Source: Candidatus Undinarchaeales archaeon SRR5007147.bin71 (GTDB lineage: Archaea; Undinarchaeota; Undinarchaeia; Undinarchaeales; Undinarchaeaceae). From it: a stretch of 39,197 nt of DNA. The first letter of the stretch is position 1, and every line of letters begins with the position of its first letter. Positions 6,185 through 37,372 of the stretch are shown one piece after another. The stretch covers positions 1 through 39,197 of the forward strand of contig DVAE01000015.1 in assembly GCA_014189675.1 (NCBI GenBank), written 5' to 3'. The notes beneath the pieces are model-generated. The model searched no databases. It saw only the letters and a list, made by a program, of their open reading frames with translations, and was not told the origin of the DNA. Made by a program: the position numbers and the translations under genes.

Positions 6185-8032
6185 ATGATAAAGACCCCGG
6201 AAAAGATGTGTAAGGTCTCGATTGCGGGGTCTAAGAAAGTTTTAGAAGATACCATACAAATAATGCACGAGAAAGGTACTGTGCATCTTGTGGACTATGC
6301 CATAACAAAGAGTGAAAAGGAAGGTGGTGTTTTTTCTATTGGAAACTCATTCGAACGGGCAGATGATCTTTCAATTGCTCTTGTAAAAGCTAGATCACTT
6401 ATGAGAACTCTTGGAGTTGAAAGAGTCTCTTCGGCGACTTCCCTGCAAGAGAGTGAAAAAATAGTTGAAAAAAGAATTGACTGGTTGCATTCTGTTATAT
6501 CTGGTCTTTTAGAGAGGAGGGAAGAAACTGGAGAAGAGTTAAGAAAAATTGAACGGGCGAGAGACGCTCTCCATTTCATTGAAATGCTTGGCGTAGATAT
6601 TGATATTCTGAAAGAGACTGAAGAACTTTCTATGTATAAGGGTTTTGTAAATAGCAATCCTGAAAATGTTTTAAAGAGTGTAAGTAAAAAGTTAGAGCTT
6701 TTTTCTGAAAAGGTCGGGAAAGAGATTGCATTTGTTTTGTTTATTGAAAAGGAGAAAGGTAATGAGGCTCTTGCAAGGTTGAAGACCTTGGAGTTCAGAG
6801 ATATTGAATTTCCAGGTAATTTTGAGAAATATGGAACACTCGCAAAGCTTGAAAAAACCGCTAAAAGTAGTGAACTGGAACTTATAGATTTGCAAAAAAA
6901 GATAGATAGGTTTAGGCGTGTTGAAGGAAAGTTCCTGCAAAATTCTGAATATAATTTGAAGAGATCAAGTGAAACGGCAGAAGCTCCGCTGAAGTTTGCA
7001 GTTAGTGATAATTCTTTTGTTGTAGAGGGATGGATACCGCAGAGGAAGTATTCTTCATTGGAAAAAACACTTGAGACAGAGCTTAAGGATAGAATTCATG
7101 TGGAATGTGAAGAGGCTTCGGATGAATTGGGGATGACTCCTCCGACTGAGCTACAGAATCCTGAACTGATTAATTCATTTGAGTTTTTTGTAGATTTATA
7201 CTCAAAACCAATCTATAAAGAGATTGATCCGACAAACTTTATTTTCCTTACATTTCCTCTGTTCTTTGGGTTTATTTTGGGAGATGTTGGATATGGAGTG
7301 ATTACACTTGCCTTGTTTTATGGTGCTAAGAAAATTCTGAAAGGCAAGGAAGCACATAGTCTGCTGAATGCTCTCATGTTAGCTTCATTTGCGACCATCA
7401 TATTTGGATTTATATTTGGGGAGTTTTTCGGATATGAGCCTTACCATCCTTTGCTAGCTAGGGCTCATGAAGTTAATATGATGTTGACTATATCTGTTGT
7501 TGTTGGAATAATTCATATTAATCTTGGATATTTTCTTGGGATGTTAAATGATTACAGGCAGAAAGGTGTTGGATATATGATTAAACACACAGGAAGTTGG
7601 CTTGGTTTTGAGATTGCGATACTTTTAGTTATTTTAGAAATATTTGGGAAGCTAAGTTTTGTGTATTCTACTTACTTAGTTTATGGAGCTCTTGCGGCCT
7701 CAGTAATTCTACTTTACATTGGACATGGTATTATTGGTATTATTGAAATTCCTTCAATACTAAGTAATATTTTATCTTATACAAGATTGTTTGCTGTTGG
7801 ATTGGCATCAGTAGCTTTGGCTATTATTGTTAACGACTTTGCAGGAGCCGCATTTAGCTCCGGTGGATTTGGATATGTGACGGGTGTTTTAACTTTGGTC
7901 GTCGGGCATACTATTAATATAGCGCTTGGAATTCTTGGCGGATTTTTGCAGTCTCTGAGATTGCACTATGTTGAGTTCTTCACAAAGTTCTATAAAGGAG
8001 GAGGAGAAGCTTATCTGCCCTTTGGAGATTAA
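6185..8032 (+). CDS. atpI: A-type ATP synthase subunit I
   Basis: 615 aa; cytoplasmic N-terminal half, membrane C-terminal half with 'SILSNILSYTRLFAVGLASVALAI'. Confidence 0.95.
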   Translation: MIKTPEKMCKVSIAGSKKVLEDTIQIMHEKGTVHLVDYAITKSEKEGGVFSIGNSFERADDLSIALVKARSLMRTLGVERVSSATSLQESEKIVEKRIDWLHSVISGLLERREETGEELRKIERARDALHFIEMLGVDIDILKETEELSMYKGFVNSNPENVLKSVSKKLELFSEKVGKEIAFVLFIEKEKGNEALARLKTLEFRDIEFPGNFEKYGTLAKLEKTAKSSELELIDLQKKIDRFRRVEGKFLQNSEYNLKRSSETAEAPLKFAVSDNSFVVEGWIPQRKYSSLEKTLETELKDRIHVECEEASDELGMTPPTELQNPELINSFEFFVDLYSKPIYKEIDPTNFIFLTFPLFFGFILGDVGYGVITLALFYGAKKILKGKEAHSLLNALMLASFATIIFGFIFGEFFGYEPYHPLLARAHEVNMMLTISVVVGIIHINLGYFLGMLNDYRQKGVGYMIKHTGSWLGFEIAILLVILEIFGKLSFVYSTYLVYGALAASVILLYIGHGIIGIIEIPSILSNILSYTRLFAVGLASVALAIIVNDFAGAAFSSGGFGYVTGVLTLVVGHTINIALGILGGFLQSLRLHYVEFFTKFYKGGGEAYLPFGD

Positions 8033-18957: not shown

Positions 18958-20151
18958 TCAGAGAAGCTCGCCACGGAGTATTTCGGATGTTTTTTCTAGG
19001 GCGACAGGAGTCATATCCAGTTTTATTTTTCTTGTTCTTCCATATCGTCCTTTGGAGACGACAAGGGAATTTATGACTCCCAACATGTCCAGTTCCGATA
19101 TTAAGTCGGAGACACGTCTCTGAGTTAGTGGCACAAGGCCTATTTGCTTGCAGAGGTTATGGTAGACTTCAAATACCTCCCCTGTAGCAACTTCGTTTTT
19201 GTTTAATTCTTTTAAGTATATTATGCTGTAGAGCACTATTTGTGACTGACGTGGTTGTGTTTTTACAATTTCAACAACACGATCAATATCTATTTTACGC
19301 ATTGCTTCGTCAACATGCTTCTCATTTACTTTTATGTCGACATTTCTTTCTGCAATTTCACACGCAACCCTGAGAAGGTCCAGTGCCCGTCTGACATCCC
19401 CATGTTCTTGGGCAGCCAGAGCTGAGCATTTTGCTATAGTTCCTTCACCAACAGAAGTAGGAGAAAGTGCGATTTTGGCTCTGTCTAGTAAAATATCCTG
19501 TATTTGAATTGCATTATAAGGAGGGAATACCAATTCCTCTTCAGAAAGGCTTGATTTTATTCTTGGATCAAGATTGTTTGTGAAATTTAAATCATTGGAA
19601 ATTCCGATAATACTTATTTTTGCGTTTGTGAGTTCGGTGTTTATCCTTGTTAAGTTATAAAGAACGTCTGTTTCGACCAGAGTATCTATTTCATCGAGAA
19701 CTAAAGTAAATACTCCACCTACTTTGTTAATTTCTCGAAGGAAAATTTTATATATTTCATCTGTTGGAAGTCCTGTTGCAGGAACTTCAACATCAATGAA
19801 ACTTAAGAAGCGTGCAAGAAGCCGATAAGGAGTGTTTATTTTCTCCATTTTACAATTCATATAAAGGGTTTTTAGTTGGGTTTTTTGTTTTGTGGCCTTT
19901 GATTCTAATTCTTGGCAGACAAATTTTGAAACAAGTGTTTTACCCGTACCTGTTTTACCATATATGAAAACATTAGAAGGTCTGTCGCCACGGAGACCTG
20001 GTGCAAGGATAGATGCGAGTTGGTTTATTTGTTCGTTTCTGTGTGGAACTGTGTCTGGTGTGTAGGCATCTTGTAAAGCTTGTTTTGAGAGGAAAAAGGA
20101 TTGTTTGCTAAGAAAGGAATCAAATAAATCTTCAAGTGTTTTTTGTTTCAT
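18958..20151 (-). CDS. cdc6: Orc1/Cdc6 origin-binding initiator
   Basis: 'NVFIYGKTGTGKT' Walker A, 'FTLVLDEIDTL' Walker B, C-terminal wHTH; start placed at internal ATG (MKQKTLEDLF). Confidence 0.96.
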   Translation of the reverse strand: MKQKTLEDLFDSFLSKQSFFLSKQALQDAYTPDTVPHRNEQINQLASILAPGLRGDRPSNVFIYGKTGTGKTLVSKFVCQELESKATKQKTQLKTLYMNCKMEKINTPYRLLARFLSFIDVEVPATGLPTDEIYKIFLREINKVGGVFTLVLDEIDTLVETDVLYNLTRINTELTNAKISIIGISNDLNFTNNLDPRIKSSLSEEELVFPPYNAIQIQDILLDRAKIALSPTSVGEGTIAKCSALAAQEHGDVRRALDLLRVACEIAERNVDIKVNEKHVDEAMRKIDIDRVVEIVKTQPRQSQIVLYSIIYLKELNKNEVATGEVFEVYHNLCKQIGLVPLTQRRVSDLISELDMLGVINSLVVSKGRYGRTRKIKLDMTPVALEKTSEILRGELL

Positions 20152-20210
20152 ACCAACCCACAATATTTTGCATAAGAAGTGGGGGTATAAATACGTTTCT
20201 GTGTTTTTAG

Positions 20211-20241
20211 AACCCACCCACCCCTTTATTTCCTGTGGAAC
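20211..20241 (-). repeat. ORB-like element 1
   Basis: Minus strand: GTTCCACAGGAAATAAAGGGGTGGGTGGGTT. Confidence 0.85.
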
Positions 20242-20420
20242 GGTGCTTTTAGGGGGCTGTGTTTTTTGTTTTGGGTTTATTTAAGTCTTGTTTATCTGTT
20301 TTGTAGTGTTTTTGTGTTGTTGTTCCTTTATTAAAAAGTAATTTACGCGTCTTTTTTGTTTTATTTTTTAAGTTGGGGTTTGGTTTGGTCTTGGTTTTTA
20401 TTTTGGGGGCTTTTTCCATT

Positions 20421-20442
20421 ATTCCATGTGAAATGGGGGGGT
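20421..20442 (+). repeat. ORB-like element 2
   Basis: ATTCCATGTGAAATGGGGGGGT. Confidence 0.75.
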
Positions 20443-20451
20443 ATTTTGGTT

Positions 20452-20477
20452 TTTTCCAGTGGAAGTTGAGGTTTTGG
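20452..20477 (+). repeat. ORB-like element 3 (mini-ORB core)
   Basis: Contains perfect core palindrome TTCCAGTGGAA at 20454-20464; G-rich tail degenerate. Confidence 0.7.
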
Positions 20478-20483
20478 TGTTGG

Positions 20484-20538
20484 TTTTATATATATAATAA
20501 TTAACCATATAGATAATAAATAAATAAATAAATAAAAC
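20484..20538. other. AT-rich putative duplex unwinding element
   Basis: 'ttttatatatataataattaaccatatagataataaataaataaataaataaaac' lies between ORB3 and ORB4; includes tandem AAAT units. Confidence 0.65.
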
Positions 20539-20614
20539 CAAAAGACTACGGACAAGGAATAAAAAAACAACAAAAACACACACAAAAAAAGAAAAACACA
20601 GAAAAGAAAGCAAA

Positions 20615-22780: not shown

Positions 22781-23200
22781 ATGCCAGCACCAAACGCACG
22801 CGAACTTGAAACACAACTAAGGACAATAAAAAAAAACACATTAAATGCACTGAATCCAGAAACAGGTATAATGGATAATAAAACCATTTTTGAACAAGGA
22901 GAATCTCTCAAAACATGGCTTGGTGAATTTGAAACCCTCTACTTAAATGAGGCCTCTTCAAAACCAAGCAAGACAGCCAAACTAAAAACAGAAGGGGAAA
23001 AAATTCTTGAATTCGGATGGCACTGCTATGAAATCTTAGTTGAAGCGGATCTACAATCAGGCGCCTCATCCAGCCCCTCTCGACGCTGGGAACCAATAGA
23101 GTACGGAACTGTTCTTGGAAACCTCAAAGAACAAATTGTTTCTAATCTCACAAAATTGGAAAACGACTACACAATCTTCATTAAAACAAGTTTATTGTAG
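22781..23200 (+). CDS. Hypothetical protein (139 aa, no family recognised)
   Basis: Open frame filling the gap between the helicase and hef; 'aacctttaatatc' TATA-like sequence upstream. Confidence 0.6.
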   Translation: MPAPNARELETQLRTIKKNTLNALNPETGIMDNKTIFEQGESLKTWLGEFETLYLNEASSKPSKTAKLKTEGEKILEFGWHCYEILVEADLQSGASSSPSRRWEPIEYGTVLGNLKEQIVSNLTKLENDYTIFIKTSLL

Positions 23201-25384
23201 AGAATATTTAGATTCTATAACACTTCGTATTTCCTTTGCCTTTTTCTTCCCTATTTTCTCAACCCTCATCAAATCTTCCTCACTCGCCTGAAATACTCCA
23301 CTAACTCCGCCAAATTCCTGAAGAAGCCTCTTAGCAAGAGAAGGTCCGACATTTGGAAGACTTTCTACAATATACTGCTGAGTTTCTGAAAGAAGTCTCG
23401 GCTTTGCCCCACTTCTTAGTCTTACTTCTCGCTTTTCATCAATCTGTTCTCTCTTCGCAATCTGGTAAATATAAGCCGCAGTATCAAAAACATCTTCGGT
23501 TGTCACTATCGGTAGCTGGAAATCAATAGCTATTGATGAAATCATCCCACGTATTGCGTTTGGATGTAAGTTCCTTTTATTATAAAGTCCACTCCCCTCA
23601 ACTATCAAAACAGGTCTCTCAAAAACCGAGCACAGAGAAGCCACCTGATCCATTAACCTACCATCTATAATCGACTGAAGAAAATCATCAACATTTTTTC
23701 TTTCAACACCAACTCTATCAGAAAGCTGGAAATCCGCAACATCCAAATGCTTCAACTGAATTTCACACCCAAGTTTTGACAATCCCTTCATTATTCCTGA
23801 TCCAGATTCCCGTGAATCAGCTATAACAATCACTTTATCATTTGTATTAGTGGAAAACTTCTCAAGAGTCTTCTGGGCTGCTGGTTTCAACTCAACACCA
23901 CCAAGCGCCCTCTCCATCCCATCTTCCTTTCTTTTAGAACTCCAATAATATGCTTCATCTCTAGTTCCTTTCGACATCAATATGTAAACATTACCTGGAG
24001 ACGTCCTTGCAGTTCTTCCACTCCTCTGTATACTTCGTATTGCGCTTGGAACTGGTTCATAAAAAACAACACTCTCAACAACAGGAATATCTAATCCTTC
24101 CTCTCCAACAGAAGTTGCTACAAGTACCTTAAATTTCCCAGCCTTAAATTTATCAATCTGCTCTATCTGAACTTTTTGACTTTGCCCCTTCGTCCTTCTA
24201 CCTGCCTGTCCTATGAGCTTCCCTGTGGAAATTCCCTTCCCCTCTAAAAATTTCACAATATTATCAACACTTGCTCTATAATTGGCAAAAACAAGTGTCT
24301 GTCCACTACCTGTGGAAATAATCTCATATAATTTCTCCATCTTCGGATGCTCAAAACCAAGCTTTGTAAGACTCTCAGTTTCAGCAAAACACATCTTCAT
24401 TCTTGGATCAATTCTCAGTCTCATAGCAGCCTTCGTCGGGTCATTCTTAAGTTTCATAAAATATTCCTGTAAAGGGGCAATCCCTTGTGTTTCCAGAAGT
24501 TCCTGTGCATAATAAACCTTCATAGCCCCTGCAACAATTGACAAATATTTATACAAATCAGGGTTCTCAGCAGCATCTTTTGCCAAACTTCCTTGTAGTT
24601 TTAACAAATCAACTTTTCTCACATACTTACTGTTTCCTAACAGACTGGCTCCTCTCAAACTTTTTATATTTTCTTTGAAAACCTTATCTAAGGCATCCTT
24701 CATTCTCATAAATTCTCTAGGAAGTTCGACATATACCCACTCCATTTTTCGCGTTCTCACATAAGGAGCAAGATCTACATGTTTCCTATTTCTATACTCT
24801 ATCTTTTCCAAAAAAAGCTCTTTACAAATCCTCTCAATATCCTCCTTCCCACTTCCAGGAGAAGCAGTCAGCCCAAGAACCCTTGAAAACTGGGACTCCT
24901 CAATATACTTCTCAGCTATAAATGAATAAGGATAGTCACCAACCGCTCTATGTGCCTCATCAACAATCAAAAGAGAGTAATCCTCAAATACTAGGTTTTT
25001 TGACAGCAAATCATTTTGAATGACTTGGGGGGTTGCAAAAATAAATTGCGCATCATTATAAAGAATCTTCCGTTTCTCTGGAGAAATTTCACCTGTCAGC
25101 GACACAAACTCATCCTTTCCAAATTTAAAAGCATTTTCCCATACTTGCCTATGCTGCTCAACAAGAGGTTTTGTCGGAGCAAGGAAAAGAACTCTCCCTT
25201 CTGGATGCTTTCCAAGCCTCTGCGCAGCAAGAAGAGCCGCAACAAAGGTCTTACCTAAACCTGTTGGTAAAACAACTAAAGTATTATTACTCACAGCAGT
25301 TCCCAAAATAGTCTCTTGGTAGAGCCTTTTCTCTATTGCGCCTTCTTTCAAAAATCCACTTCCCATACCCATATCTTGTTTCAC
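23192..25384 (-). CDS. hef: Hef-type helicase/ERCC4 nuclease
   Basis: Helicase motifs 'VLPTGLGKTFVAALLAA', 'IVDEAHRAVG', 'GLTASPGS', 'QRSGRTARTSPG'; nuclease motif 'GVERKNVDDF'; C-terminal helix-hairpin-helix 'LPNVGPSLAKRLLQEFGG'. Confidence 0.96.
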   Translation of the reverse strand: MKQDMGMGSGFLKEGAIEKRLYQETILGTAVSNNTLVVLPTGLGKTFVAALLAAQRLGKHPEGRVLFLAPTKPLVEQHRQVWENAFKFGKDEFVSLTGEISPEKRKILYNDAQFIFATPQVIQNDLLSKNLVFEDYSLLIVDEAHRAVGDYPYSFIAEKYIEESQFSRVLGLTASPGSGKEDIERICKELFLEKIEYRNRKHVDLAPYVRTRKMEWVYVELPREFMRMKDALDKVFKENIKSLRGASLLGNSKYVRKVDLLKLQGSLAKDAAENPDLYKYLSIVAGAMKVYYAQELLETQGIAPLQEYFMKLKNDPTKAAMRLRIDPRMKMCFAETESLTKLGFEHPKMEKLYEIISTGSGQTLVFANYRASVDNIVKFLEGKGISTGKLIGQAGRRTKGQSQKVQIEQIDKFKAGKFKVLVATSVGEEGLDIPVVESVVFYEPVPSAIRSIQRSGRTARTSPGNVYILMSKGTRDEAYYWSSKRKEDGMERALGGVELKPAAQKTLEKFSTNTNDKVIVIADSRESGSGIMKGLSKLGCEIQLKHLDVADFQLSDRVGVERKNVDDFLQSIIDGRLMDQVASLCSVFERPVLIVEGSGLYNKRNLHPNAIRGMISSIAIDFQLPIVTTEDVFDTAAYIYQIAKREQIDEKREVRLRSGAKPRLLSETQQYIVESLPNVGPSLAKRLLQEFGGVSGVFQASEEDLMRVEKIGKKKAKEIRSVIESKYSLQ

Positions 25385-25454
25385 ATTCTATATATTTCAT
25401 CGCCCCGACAAAAAGTATATAAGACCCCCAATACTTCAGTAGTCGGTCAAGATA

Positions 25455-25673
25455 ATGAAAAAACCGGCTCTAAAAAAACAAACAAAGCCACTCCCCACCT
25501 GGATGACCACACTCTCGAATAAAATTCTTCCACCTATCTTTTTCTTTTCTCTAGCTGTTCTAACTCTTCACCTAATGCCCCTCGCAAGCACAAAAATTCT
25601 CAAACTTAATCTTGGAATACTTTCAATAACTTCCTCAACAATTTCGTTTTATCTCACAATTCTCCTTCTGTAA
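25455..25673 (+). CDS. Small hydrophobic membrane protein (hypothetical)
   Basis: 72 aa with two predicted hydrophobic segments; ATG spaced after the hef divergent region. Confidence 0.5.
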   Translation: MKKPALKKQTKPLPTWMTTLSNKILPPIFFFSLAVLTLHLMPLASTKILKLNLGILSITSSTISFYLTILLL

Positions 25674-25705
25674 AACTTTATAAACACAATAGAATAATCT
25701 TTAAT

Positions 25706-26176
25706 ATGGGAGTCAGGGCGCTATTAGGTGGAATTTCCAAAAAAATAAAAAGTCGATTTTCCGACGAAGACGATTTAGAAGATGAGCTTGGATCAGACGA
25801 AGATCTTGATGATGATTTATCTGAAGACGAAGAAGATGAGGAAGAAGATTTAGACGACTTAAACGAAAAACCAGAGCCCTCCCCAACAAGTCCTCCCTCT
25901 ACAAAACCACCTGTTTCTGAAATCCCCTTAACTCCAGCCCCACAAGAGCAGAAAGTCTCCTCGGCTCCACATGATTCTGGAAAAATATCAGCGGAGTTGG
26001 CAACCATAAAGACTAAAATAGACTTACTAGAGTCCCACCTCCAAAATATAGAAAGCAAAGAAGCACTTTACAAATCAGAGGCTGATAGATATATGCAGTA
26101 TCTCACATATATCAGCGACAAACTTGACAACTTGGCGAGAGAGCATGCCGAACTTGAAAGACTCATCCGTCAATAA
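25706..26176 (+). CDS. Hyperacidic linker plus coiled-coil hypothetical protein
   Basis: 156 aa; D/E-rich block then P/S linker then coiled coil 'ELATIKTKIDLLESHLQNIE...LDNLAREHAELERLIRQ'. Confidence 0.7.
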   Translation: MGVRALLGGISKKIKSRFSDEDDLEDELGSDEDLDDDLSEDEEDEEEDLDDLNEKPEPSPTSPPSTKPPVSEIPLTPAPQEQKVSSAPHDSGKISAELATIKTKIDLLESHLQNIESKEALYKSEADRYMQYLTYISDKLDNLAREHAELERLIRQ

Positions 26177-34333: not shown

Positions 34334-34369
34334 ATTCGACCTAGTTCTTTCTGGTATTAACACTTTACT

Positions 34370-34443
34370 CTCACGCCCTTGTGAGGATTAAACGGCCTTT
34401 CTTCAAGAAAGTCGGTCGATTCAGCCTCAGCATAGTGGTTTTA
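34370..34443. ncRNA. Structured repeat element A (candidate ncRNA or regulatory element)
   Basis: CTCACgcccttGTGAG hairpin + CTTTCTTCAAGAAAG hairpin + CAGCATAG box; related to element B at 37300-37372. Confidence 0.5.
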
Positions 34444-34908
34444 CTACAAAATTAAAAACTAAGTGAAATATGAAATCGACAGCATGCGCCCATCCCTCAC
34501 TTTTCCCATTTTCCCTAGTTTCTAGCTACGTTTCTCTCACATTTCAAACTTTTCCCTGATCTCGCCACCTAAAAACCCAAAAACATCAATCTATGTCTCA
34601 CATTCACACTTTTCATACATACATTTCCAAGTATTAAACACACAAACAAGTTCTCTCTTCACAAAATGACTAAATCTCTCAATTCTCTGTCTCAAAATCG
34701 AAAAATCAACTCTCACATTCAAAATAATTCACTTGGAAAAGCTAAAGAAAAAGTTTCAAAAATCTCTCAAAGCTCCTGAAAATCCAACCACTCAGAATTT
34801 CCCCCTAAATTCAAAGACAAATCTCCAATTTTACACAAAACCCCTCACAATAATCCGTCATATATGTAAACAGGACACAAGCTACTGATTTACTCAAAAT
34901 ATTAATAG

Positions 34909-34932
34909 GTCACCTTACATGTCACCTTACAT
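34909..34932 (+). repeat. Tandem 12-bp repeat upstream of wHTH gene promoter
   Basis: GTCACCTTACAT x2, followed about 10-15 nt later by TATA-like 'atatatttatat'. Confidence 0.8.
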
Positions 34933-34975
34933 AATATCCCCAATATATTTATATGATAAACCGCTAGGCTTAAGC

Positions 34976-35581
34976 ATGGGACTATTCGATCTCCTCAGGC
35001 AAAAAAAGAAGAAATCCGTAAAGAAAGCGTCAAGTAAAGGGAAGACCCGTAAGCCGTCACGTCAAAAGCGTCTCCAGACTAAGGCGACACAAAAACCACT
35101 ACAGTCTCGCCAGCTATCGAAAAAAAGAGCAAATCTTGTCGTAATAGATCCAAGAATAGAGGCAAAAACCGAAATAGAAGATCCACTTATCTCAATTTCT
35201 CGGCAACTCACAAAAATCCAGGACGCTCTCGAAAAAAGCCACAGTACAATGCAAAGCGGTATGCAGAGTCTCAGAGACGATCATCACACAATCATAGAAC
35301 GGCAGGTTACGCCAGATAATGTAGCTCAGGCTTTCGAAAACCGCAAACACGAACTTGAACAACAAAAAGAAAATATAGAAGGTGAACTGGACATACTTGA
35401 AATTGATCAGAAAATACTTGATTCTCTCACTGAAAAAAAGCTTCGCAGCATAACGATTTCCAAAAACCTAAGCCTCTCCAGACAGTACACTGCCTCAAGA
35501 CTCTCCCACTTAATAGATTCTGGCTTTGTAAAGCGCACTAAGCGCGGCAGAAGTGTATACTACTCACTAATTACTTCGTAA
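34976..35581 (+). CDS. Coiled-coil protein with C-terminal winged helix
   Basis: Basic N-term, central helical region, C-term 'ITISKNLSLSRQYTASRLSHLIDSGFVKRTKRGRSVYYSLI' MarR/ArsR-like wHTH; start likely ATG 34976. Confidence 0.72.
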   Translation: MGLFDLLRQKKKKSVKKASSKGKTRKPSRQKRLQTKATQKPLQSRQLSKKRANLVVIDPRIEAKTEIEDPLISISRQLTKIQDALEKSHSTMQSGMQSLRDDHHTIIERQVTPDNVAQAFENRKHELEQQKENIEGELDILEIDQKILDSLTEKKLRSITISKNLSLSRQYTASRLSHLIDSGFVKRTKRGRSVYYSLITS

Positions 35582-35618
35582 AATCTCCTAAAAATAGAGC
35601 TAAGTCTCACAAATAAAC

Positions 35619-35732
35619 TTATATTCCCATCTTACGCTTTCTGTGGGCTCTCTTCCTTCTTCTAATCTTCTTTTTGACCCACTTCCAGCGCTGCCTACCC
35701 TTTTTCTTCCATTTTCTTGGCTTGCTCTTCAT
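35619..35732 (-). CDS. 37-aa extremely basic microprotein, possibly ribosomal protein eL41-like
   Basis: Translated by hand: [37 protein letters not shown]; 22 of 37 residues K/R, no acidic residues; 'GGAGAG' upstream of ATG. Below the size cut-off of the ORF track. Confidence 0.72.
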
Positions 35733-35858
35733 AGATGCTCTCCTATCCGTATACTCGCTTATATCTTTTTGTATTTTTTAAATCTTCCATATAATATACC
35801 TTCAAAACATACTGTTTAATCATCATTTTCCAAACAATACCTTCTCAGAACCTTAAAT

Positions 35859-36371
35859 TTATCTCTCACGTTTTTCTCCTTCAGATGCGTCGCTTGCTCT
35901 CGCTTTTGCGGTTTCCACAATGCTCTCGTACTCCTTCGCAAGATGCCCAAAGAACTTTGAAAATTGAGTACTCGGTCTTATAATATTCTGATAATGTTTT
36001 TGCGTCGACTTAGAATGATGGAAGCGCCGCCTCTCGGTTTTCACCATACCAACGCGCCTCAATCTGGGCAATATCACATTATAAAATGTCGCCTTCGAAA
36101 AATTATTATCCCTCAGAAAGGCTCCGACATCGTCCCCTTCAAGCTCCAATTTTTCAAGAAGAAGCGTCATAAATGCCTTAGAAACTTCATAATACTTCGC
36201 TTGATACTGGTCTGGAAACACAATCTGCAGTATCTGCTCCATCTCAAGCCGAACATTCTTTCCGTACTTCCACTGATCCCGGAGCTTCCTTATGTCCGAC
36301 ATCCAGAGAGCTTCCTTGCTTGGAATTCCCCTTGAAGCAGGTTGCATACCATTATGATGTTTTTCTGCCAT
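35859..36371 (-). CDS. wHTH-type DNA-binding protein (hypothetical regulator)
   Basis: 'DDVGAFLRDNNFSKATFYNVILPRLRRVGMVKTERRRFHHS' HTH-wing pattern; AGGAGAG RBS. Confidence 0.7.
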   Translation of the reverse strand: MAEKHHNGMQPASRGIPSKEALWMSDIRKLRDQWKYGKNVRLEMEQILQIVFPDQYQAKYYEVSKAFMTLLLEKLELEGDDVGAFLRDNNFSKATFYNVILPRLRRVGMVKTERRRFHHSKSTQKHYQNIIRPSTQFSKFFGHLAKEYESIVETAKARASDASEGEKRER

Positions 36372-36433
36372 AGTCTCTCCTAATTCCTTAGACTATTTAA
36401 CTTTAACCAAATTCGGCTTTCTAAAAACCCAGT

Positions 36434-36551
36434 GGTCTATTGTAATGATGTGCTACTGGAAATCTCAGTGCTGGAGGCTGGCCCAGGCGCTTGAAGTTCC
36501 AAAAAAGCGCCTAAAACAGCGTTTTTAACAAAAATATAGCACCCCTGGACC
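36434..36551. ncRNA. Candidate structured RNA between two regulator genes
   Basis: Nested complementary segments: GGTC/GACC, GTGCTA/TAGCAC, enclosing ACTG/CAGT, AGGCGCTT/AAGCGCCT and AAAAC/GTTTT hairpins. Confidence 0.35.
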
Positions 36552-36587
36552 AAATAAAACGAAAAAATCTATAATACCATAATGGTG

Positions 36588-36941
36588 TTATTCTGCTTCT
36601 CCTTCAGACTCCTCAACAACACTCTCTGCCGGAAGCATTCTCTTCGGAATTCTCCTAGTCAGCAGTATCTCAAACTCATCAGCCAGGTCCTTACCGTGAT
36701 CTGTCAGCTCAACAAACTTAGTCCTCCCCTCTTTATTGAAGGTGACTAAACCGAGCTCCTCCATCTTCATAAGAAGTTTTACAGTATGAGCATAGGTGCA
36801 GTCTATCTCTTTTGCGAGCGCAAGAGCATAGGATTTCTCACCTGAGCCAACGCTGACAAGAAGCTTTGCCGGCTTCGGCCGCAGAAAAAGGTTCTCCAGC
36901 GTCGCTTGATGCTGGTTTTCCCCGAGTGTTTCTGTTCCCAT
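36588..36941 (-). CDS. MarR-like wHTH transcriptional regulator
   Basis: 'EIDCTYAHTVKLLMKMEELGLVTFNKEGRTKFVELTDHGKDLADE'. Confidence 0.82.
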   Translation of the reverse strand: MGTETLGENQHQATLENLFLRPKPAKLLVSVGSGEKSYALALAKEIDCTYAHTVKLLMKMEELGLVTFNKEGRTKFVELTDHGKDLADEFEILLTRRIPKRMLPAESVVEESEGEAE

Positions 36942-37299
36942 GTGAGGATTTAAGTTTCGGTTCCTATTATACTTTATGCATTTTCAGAATATACCTTTTA
37001 AACACTATATTAAAGAAATCATAATTAAAAAATAGATTTCCAAATAAAGTCTGAGTCCGACTAAAAAATATTTAGTAAAACCGATAGCTGTAGAGCAAGT
37101 AAAAAACAGCGTGCATATGCTTCCTATATACATAGAAAAGCCAAATGTGAGACATAAGTCAAGCAGTTTATGCGCTGAGCCGAAGAAGTTGAGAGCTCTG
37201 AAGCCCGGCGCAGCTAGAGTCCAGCAAAATCAGAAGCAAAAAATGCTTTGTGAGAGAAGAATCGAAAAAATATAGCTCTCAAAGGGTCTGACAGAGGAA

Positions 37300-37372
37300 T
37301 CTCACAAAAATGTGAGACTTAAATCGACCTTTTCCAAGAAAGTCAGTTTTTCAAGCGCAGCATAGCGATTTA
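37300..37372. ncRNA. Structured repeat element B (candidate ncRNA or regulatory element)
   Basis: TCTCACAaaaaTGTGAGA hairpin, AAGAAAGTC and CAGCATAG boxes in the same order and spacing as element A. Confidence 0.5.

Follow-up and report, generated by a model that had tools for sequence, protein, structure and literature searches.

The AspA protein of the AspA-ParB-ParA partition system (Sulfolobus pNOB8) recognises a 23-bp palindrome that precedes its gene, and its spreading covers more than 200 bp; in the SegAB system of Saccharolobus the SegB palindromes lie upstream of segA (PMC5120986). At oriC3 of Sulfolobus, the winged-helix initiator WhiP is found beside an origin that has no ORBs (PMC4010727). 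The locus described here, in a 39,197-nt window of archaeal DNA, consists of two composite elements, A and B, and of two arrays of a short motif, TCTCACA, on either side of a block of genes that encodes three winged-helix proteins. As in the pNOB8 system, a winged-helix gene adjoins a palindromic site and several sites stand in a row, but the block has no ParB or ParA gene, the palindrome is a different one, and the locus is chromosomal. Like SegAB, it has two palindromic sites upstream of genes for DNA-binding proteins, which could serve either as centromere or as operator; unlike SegAB, it has no SegA or SegB, and its sites flank a winged-helix gene block. A winged-helix gene beside repeated sites also recalls WhiP and oriC3, although neither a GC skew flip nor an AT-rich unwinding element was found at the block, and a canonical-looking ORB-type origin lies 14 kb away. 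Archaeal autoregulatory operators of the MarR/ArsR/PadR type resemble the locus in the 16-bp dyad with half-site centres 11 bp apart, in its position near promoters, and in that the regulators of the block appear to have palindromes of their own (TGACATATGTCA, ACCATNATGGT); what sets it apart from them is that its half-sites form polar arrays hundreds of base pairs long, with composite end elements of 74 bp.

Little is known of gene regulation or chromosome segregation in DPANN archaea with very small genomes. The locus could be an elaborate autoregulatory switch or a partition site, and to our knowledge such a site has not been described in DPANN archaea. A single conserved, strongly polarised array near oriC together with three winged-helix genes makes an easily cloned and directly testable target.

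The window corresponds to contig C38 in a draft archaeal genome of 624 kb (the source genome). It was compared with its nearest relatives, ARS1358 and UBA55, which belong to the same genus, and with two genomes from other families, UBA543 and Candidatus Naiadarchaeum limnaeum; all four are members of the phylum Undinarchaeota (for Naiadarchaeum, PMC7414124). The three genomes that carry A and B are from one genus and close to each other (87-94% DNA identity at the locus), and they are draft assemblies of 75-86% completeness. Genome-wide motif counts were obtained by pattern searches, every array-bearing assembly being an incomplete draft. The features of the locus and of the origin region are listed in Table 1.

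Table 1. Features of the regulator block, its flanking elements and the origin region (window coordinates)
Feature	Coordinates	Strand	Description
orc1/cdc6	18958-20217	-	TIGR02928 and Pfam; part of a DP2-DP1-orc1 cluster
Canonical-looking oriC	20217-20600		Upstream of orc1; TATATATA/AATAAATAAATAA stretch surrounded by TTCCAGTGGAA and similar ORB-like boxes that have G-rich tails
Element A	34369-34441	+	Dyad CTCAC-N6-GTGAG at 34370-34385, TTAAA, CTTTC/GAAAG inverted repeat, CAGCATAG tail
Left array	34490-34850	all +	(T)CTCAC(A) units at 34495, 34535, 34596, 34711, 34843
Second motif, further copy	~34957	+	Related to the reverse complement of the A/B tails
whtA	34976-35581	+	ArsR-like winged helix behind a basic N-terminus and a long, helical-looking middle; conserved in three families
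37-aa very basic protein	35621-35732	-	59-60% identity in other families
wht35859	35859-36371	-	Predicted winged-helix fold, not assigned to a Pfam family; other DPANN archaea have homologs
wht36588	36588-36941	-	MarR/PadR-like winged helix (HTH_27)
Second motif AAAACCGATAGC	37080-37095	+	Related to the reverse complement of the A/B tails (AAAACCACTATGC / AAATCGCTATGC)
Right array	37144-37317	-	TCTCACA units at 37144, 37247, 37309; ends in B
BRE/TATA-like CGAAAAAATATAG	37263-37275	+	Conserved; about 29 nt upstream of B
Element B	37300-37372	+	Dyad CTCAC-N6-GTGAG at 37301-37316, TTAAA, CTTTT/GAAAG, CAGCATAG tail
Single array half-site			Form TCTCACATT

A first-pass annotation of the window had described A and B as related elements on the same strand, and had placed both to within a base. 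They are mutual best matches within the window, with a local alignment score of 59 over 73-75 nt against a maximum of 32 in 2000 dinucleotide-shuffled pairs, and they share the order TCTCAC/GTGAG, TTAAA, CAAGAAAGT, CAGCATAG and TTT. The start of A lies about 37 nt upstream of the ATG of surE, which is on the minus strand, and B is located just 3' of a zinc-ribbon gene (minus strand; Pfam Zn_ribbon_2), with 16 nt between the end of B and the stop. In both other genomes of the genus, A and B occupy the same place, with unchanged order and spacing. Columns identical in all three genomes amount to 85% in A and 95% in B, against baselines of 56% in the remaining left intergenic DNA and roughly 68-86% at third codon positions. 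The first hairpin is kept with a differing loop, as had been proposed: both arms are invariant, and N6 differs between A and B and, in A, from species to species (GCCCTT, TCTCTT, ATCTTT), a pattern of invariant arms and a freely varying spacer as in an operator. The dyad CTCAC-N6-GTGAG occurs exactly twice per genome, as A and B, in 3/3 genomes (0 for the reversed-pattern control), so the dyad search returned no further copies in these relatives. The distance between its half-site centres, about one helical turn, is the same in A and B of the three genomes. In UBA543, the outermost right unit (L019:7437), at the place matching B, keeps a 14-nt core of B, TGTGAGACTTAAAT.

In the intergenic DNA upstream of whtA and wht36588, no 7-mer is more over-represented than TCTCACA (17 seen against 0.78 expected, pooled over the source genome, UBA543 and Naiadarchaeum). 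Within a block of 3-3.6 kb lie 8 of the 28 TCTCACAWW sites of the source genome, 7 of 29 in ARS1358, 7 of 32 in UBA55 and 11 of 32 in UBA543, a clustering with Poisson P values from 9e-11 to 5e-19 over the four genomes and of about 1e-13 in the source genome. The arrays point inward, all units left of whtA being on the plus strand and all units right of wht36588 on the minus strand, the second arm of each dyad alone reading the other way; the same polarity is found on both sides in UBA543. The polarity could in part come from a C-rich composition of the sense strand. In Naiadarchaeum, the left array contains 6 CTCAC against 0.62 expected, with 0 on the opposite strand, and a search of the right side found no right array, though all three winged-helix genes are there. 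Two other families have the left array, and one of them has the right array as well. The outermost unit is A at the left end and B at the right end. The two elements had been said to bracket the block, which is correct, and they do so by capping the outer ends of two arrays that had been missed.

The half-sites are conserved islands, with 86-92% identity against 56% in the surrounding left intergenic DNA. The 3' extension of the motif is mostly ATT in the genus of the window and AAA in UBA543, and it is the same in the left and right arrays, which suggests one shared reader drifting by lineage. Read on the minus strand, the tails of A and B form a second motif, AAAACCG(A/C)TAGC or AAATCGCTATGC, which is likewise concentrated in the block, with 6 of its 24 genome matches in UBA543 and 4 of 13 in Naiadarchaeum. 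Most TCTCACAWW sites outside the block are scattered. Five are found within 3 kb at 23146-26101, mostly inside genes, and a like group is present in UBA55 and not in ARS1358. A candidate second TCTCACA cluster, on contig C37, was rejected, its sites lying in a region full of ordinary coding genes.

The genes whtA, wht35859 and wht36588 and the gene for the 37-aa basic protein are conserved together in three families of the phylum. In a further, 75%-complete assembly (G004), no match to wht36588 or wht35859 was found. A mechanical open reading frame for whtA begins at 34919, but its homologs begin at an inner ATG, at about 34976. The basic microprotein of the first-pass annotation is indeed a very basic protein, and it looks like ribosomal protein eL41; no model in Pfam or NCBIfam matches it. 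For wht35859, the nearest folds are TFIIE/TFE-alpha, PadR and RTP, all with E above 1e-3 and none a clear relative, and no common context was found among the gene neighbours of its Micrarchaeota homologs. The closest solved chain to wht36588 is AF_1382, at 2.5e-7; its predicted model is poor (pLDDT 49).

A reading of A, B and the arrays as a DNA locus that acts in cis and serves autoregulation through the binding of a winged-helix protein from the block has in our judgement about an even chance of being right. A and B would act as DNA, as the two-sided (dyad) copies, farthest out on each side, of a putative protein-binding motif, TCTCACA, whose one-sided copies form the two arrays that flank the conserved block. 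A winged-helix protein encoded in the block would bind the dyads as a dimer, which is proposed because of the 11-bp distance between half-site centres, and the same protein would bind the array half-sites cooperatively. Once bound, it would control the genes of the block and, through A, also the surE promoter next to that element. From the sequences we infer that the motif is read by a protein rather than by an RNA; wht36588 would be the likeliest candidate for this reader, and autoregulation the default outcome. Among the options that had been offered for A and B (a small RNA family, a repeated regulatory element, or the boundaries of an acquired cassette), the repeated regulatory element fits best. 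Some features speak against an operator. A simple operator does not usually have polar half-site arrays that extend to about 700 bp upstream of a gene; the dyad alone does not explain the further 50 nt that A and B have in common; and in Naiadarchaeum the right array is missing despite all three winged-helix genes.

The position of the block relative to the origin bears on another function. The genes beside orc1 are, from their position, presumably DP1 and DP2. Boxes of the form TTCCAGTGGAA (20.2-20.5 kb in the window) and AT-rich DNA are found upstream of orc1 in three genomes, the boxes being the sole copies on those contigs; their letters resemble those of the ORB box. The same layout is present in ARS1358 and UBA543. 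ORB boxes and AT-rich DNA beside orc1/cdc6, with a flip of the skew, are what one expects to see at an archaeal oriC (PMC4010727). The sign of the GC skew switches at this putative origin, at 20.2 kb in the window, at 34.7 kb on contig C6 of ARS1358 and at 18.7 kb on contig C7 of UBA543. The direction of this change is unexpected in two families: the low-coordinate side is G-rich and the high-coordinate side, where the plus strand should be leading, is C-rich. A replication origin at the regulator block itself was rejected, as the skew flip and the ORB-like boxes are at orc1 and none are at the block; since the skew does not flip there, the block is not the main origin.

In two families the block and orc1 are about 12-14 kb apart, with the block on the same side, despite differing intervening genes. 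This would suit an origin-proximal partition (centromere-like) or nucleoid-organising site. There, a winged-helix protein would first load onto the two dyads and then spread along the arrays to handle the origin once it has been replicated, as at the sites of AspA/pNOB8 or SegB. Such a site would also account for there being one array locus per genome (in the drafts) and for the inverted arrays around genes for DNA-binding proteins. Both AspA and SegB recognise palindromic sites ahead of the genes that encode them, and AspA also spreads along the DNA (PMC5120986). The protein wht36588 matches AspA weakly (E 0.004), a match that may reflect general winged-helix likeness, AF_1382 being far better. 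AspA would be the closest analogue in how a partition role might work, but the locus does not belong to that system, as there is no ParA or ParB gene, nor a SegA gene, among the open reading frames of the block, ParA-like ATPases being found on other contigs, and synteny alone could hold the block near oriC. We consider a partition or nucleoid-organising role unlikely, and quite unlikely the more specific proposal of a DPANN chromosomal centromere-like partition or nucleoid-organising site, some 14 kb from oriC, in which a winged-helix protein whose gene lies between the capped arrays reads them.

Alternatively, A and B could be small structured RNAs, transcribed from the plus strand of two paralogous genes. 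The first hairpin, kept despite different loops, is the only common fold of the two, and its inner pairs are invariant, which is what stands of the structural conservation suggested earlier. The common structure of the set does not exceed shuffled controls, and no compensatory pair was found in the 6 sequences (three closely related copies of each element). The short second stem that had been described as common to both is out of register between them. B folds better than shuffled sequences (z -2.05 on the plus strand and -2.65 on the minus strand) and has a TATA-like box of its own, which scores above the median of the gene promoters of the genus and fits a transcript at B. A folds no better than chance (z -1.32), and no counterpart of this box was found upstream of it. 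No Rfam family matches A or B, even at a loose threshold, in agreement with the earlier remark that no named family was recognised. The arms are, moreover, identical to the half-site of a DNA array. These results, with the lack of further copies, weaken the proposal of a small RNA family: an sRNA is possible for B and weak for the A/B pair, and as an account of both elements it is rather improbable.

The arrays might instead act as RNA. Long transcripts upstream of the winged-helix genes would then contain multiple UCUCACA (or UGUGAGA) sites recognised by an RNA-binding protein, and A and B would be the ends of these transcripts. Strict strand polarity and the conservation of the right intergenic DNA throughout (87-91%) would fit this, but TATA-like boxes close to the ATGs of whtA and wht36588 suggest leaderless transcripts starting downstream of the arrays, and the right region folds near chance (z -1.6 on both strands), which leaves arrays acting as RNA distinctly improbable. 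That A and B are the ends of an acquired or mobile cassette, an option prompted by same-orientation repeats at both ends of the block, is nearly refuted and very improbable: the block is conserved and syntenic in three families, includes a probable ribosomal protein and has no integrase, transposase or recombinase gene, and the dyad search of the genomes gave no second copy anywhere.

Other features were observed within the block. The noncoding stretch at 37061-37298 is 87% conserved across three genomes, like coding DNA, and holds AAAACCGATAGC and GTGAGA units. A structured RNA at 37075-37285 was unconvincing, with a folding z of about -1.6 on both strands, and a protein in this DNA (a 54-aa open reading frame at 37111) was rejected, an indel breaking the frame in both relatives. 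Between wht36588 and wht35859, a candidate RNA at 36420-36540 is strongly conserved in the genus (GTGCTGGAGGCTGGCCCAGGCGCTTGAAG...). Palindromes of the forms TGACATATGTCA and TTACATGTCA cluster just upstream of whtA in three families (window 34841-34976, L019:4660-4860 and L020:12969-13030) and are probably whtA's own operator. In two families, a ACCATNATGGT-type palindrome lies between wht36588 and wht35859 (window 36572-36596; L019:6627-6645 and 6681-6700), a probable second, separate operator.
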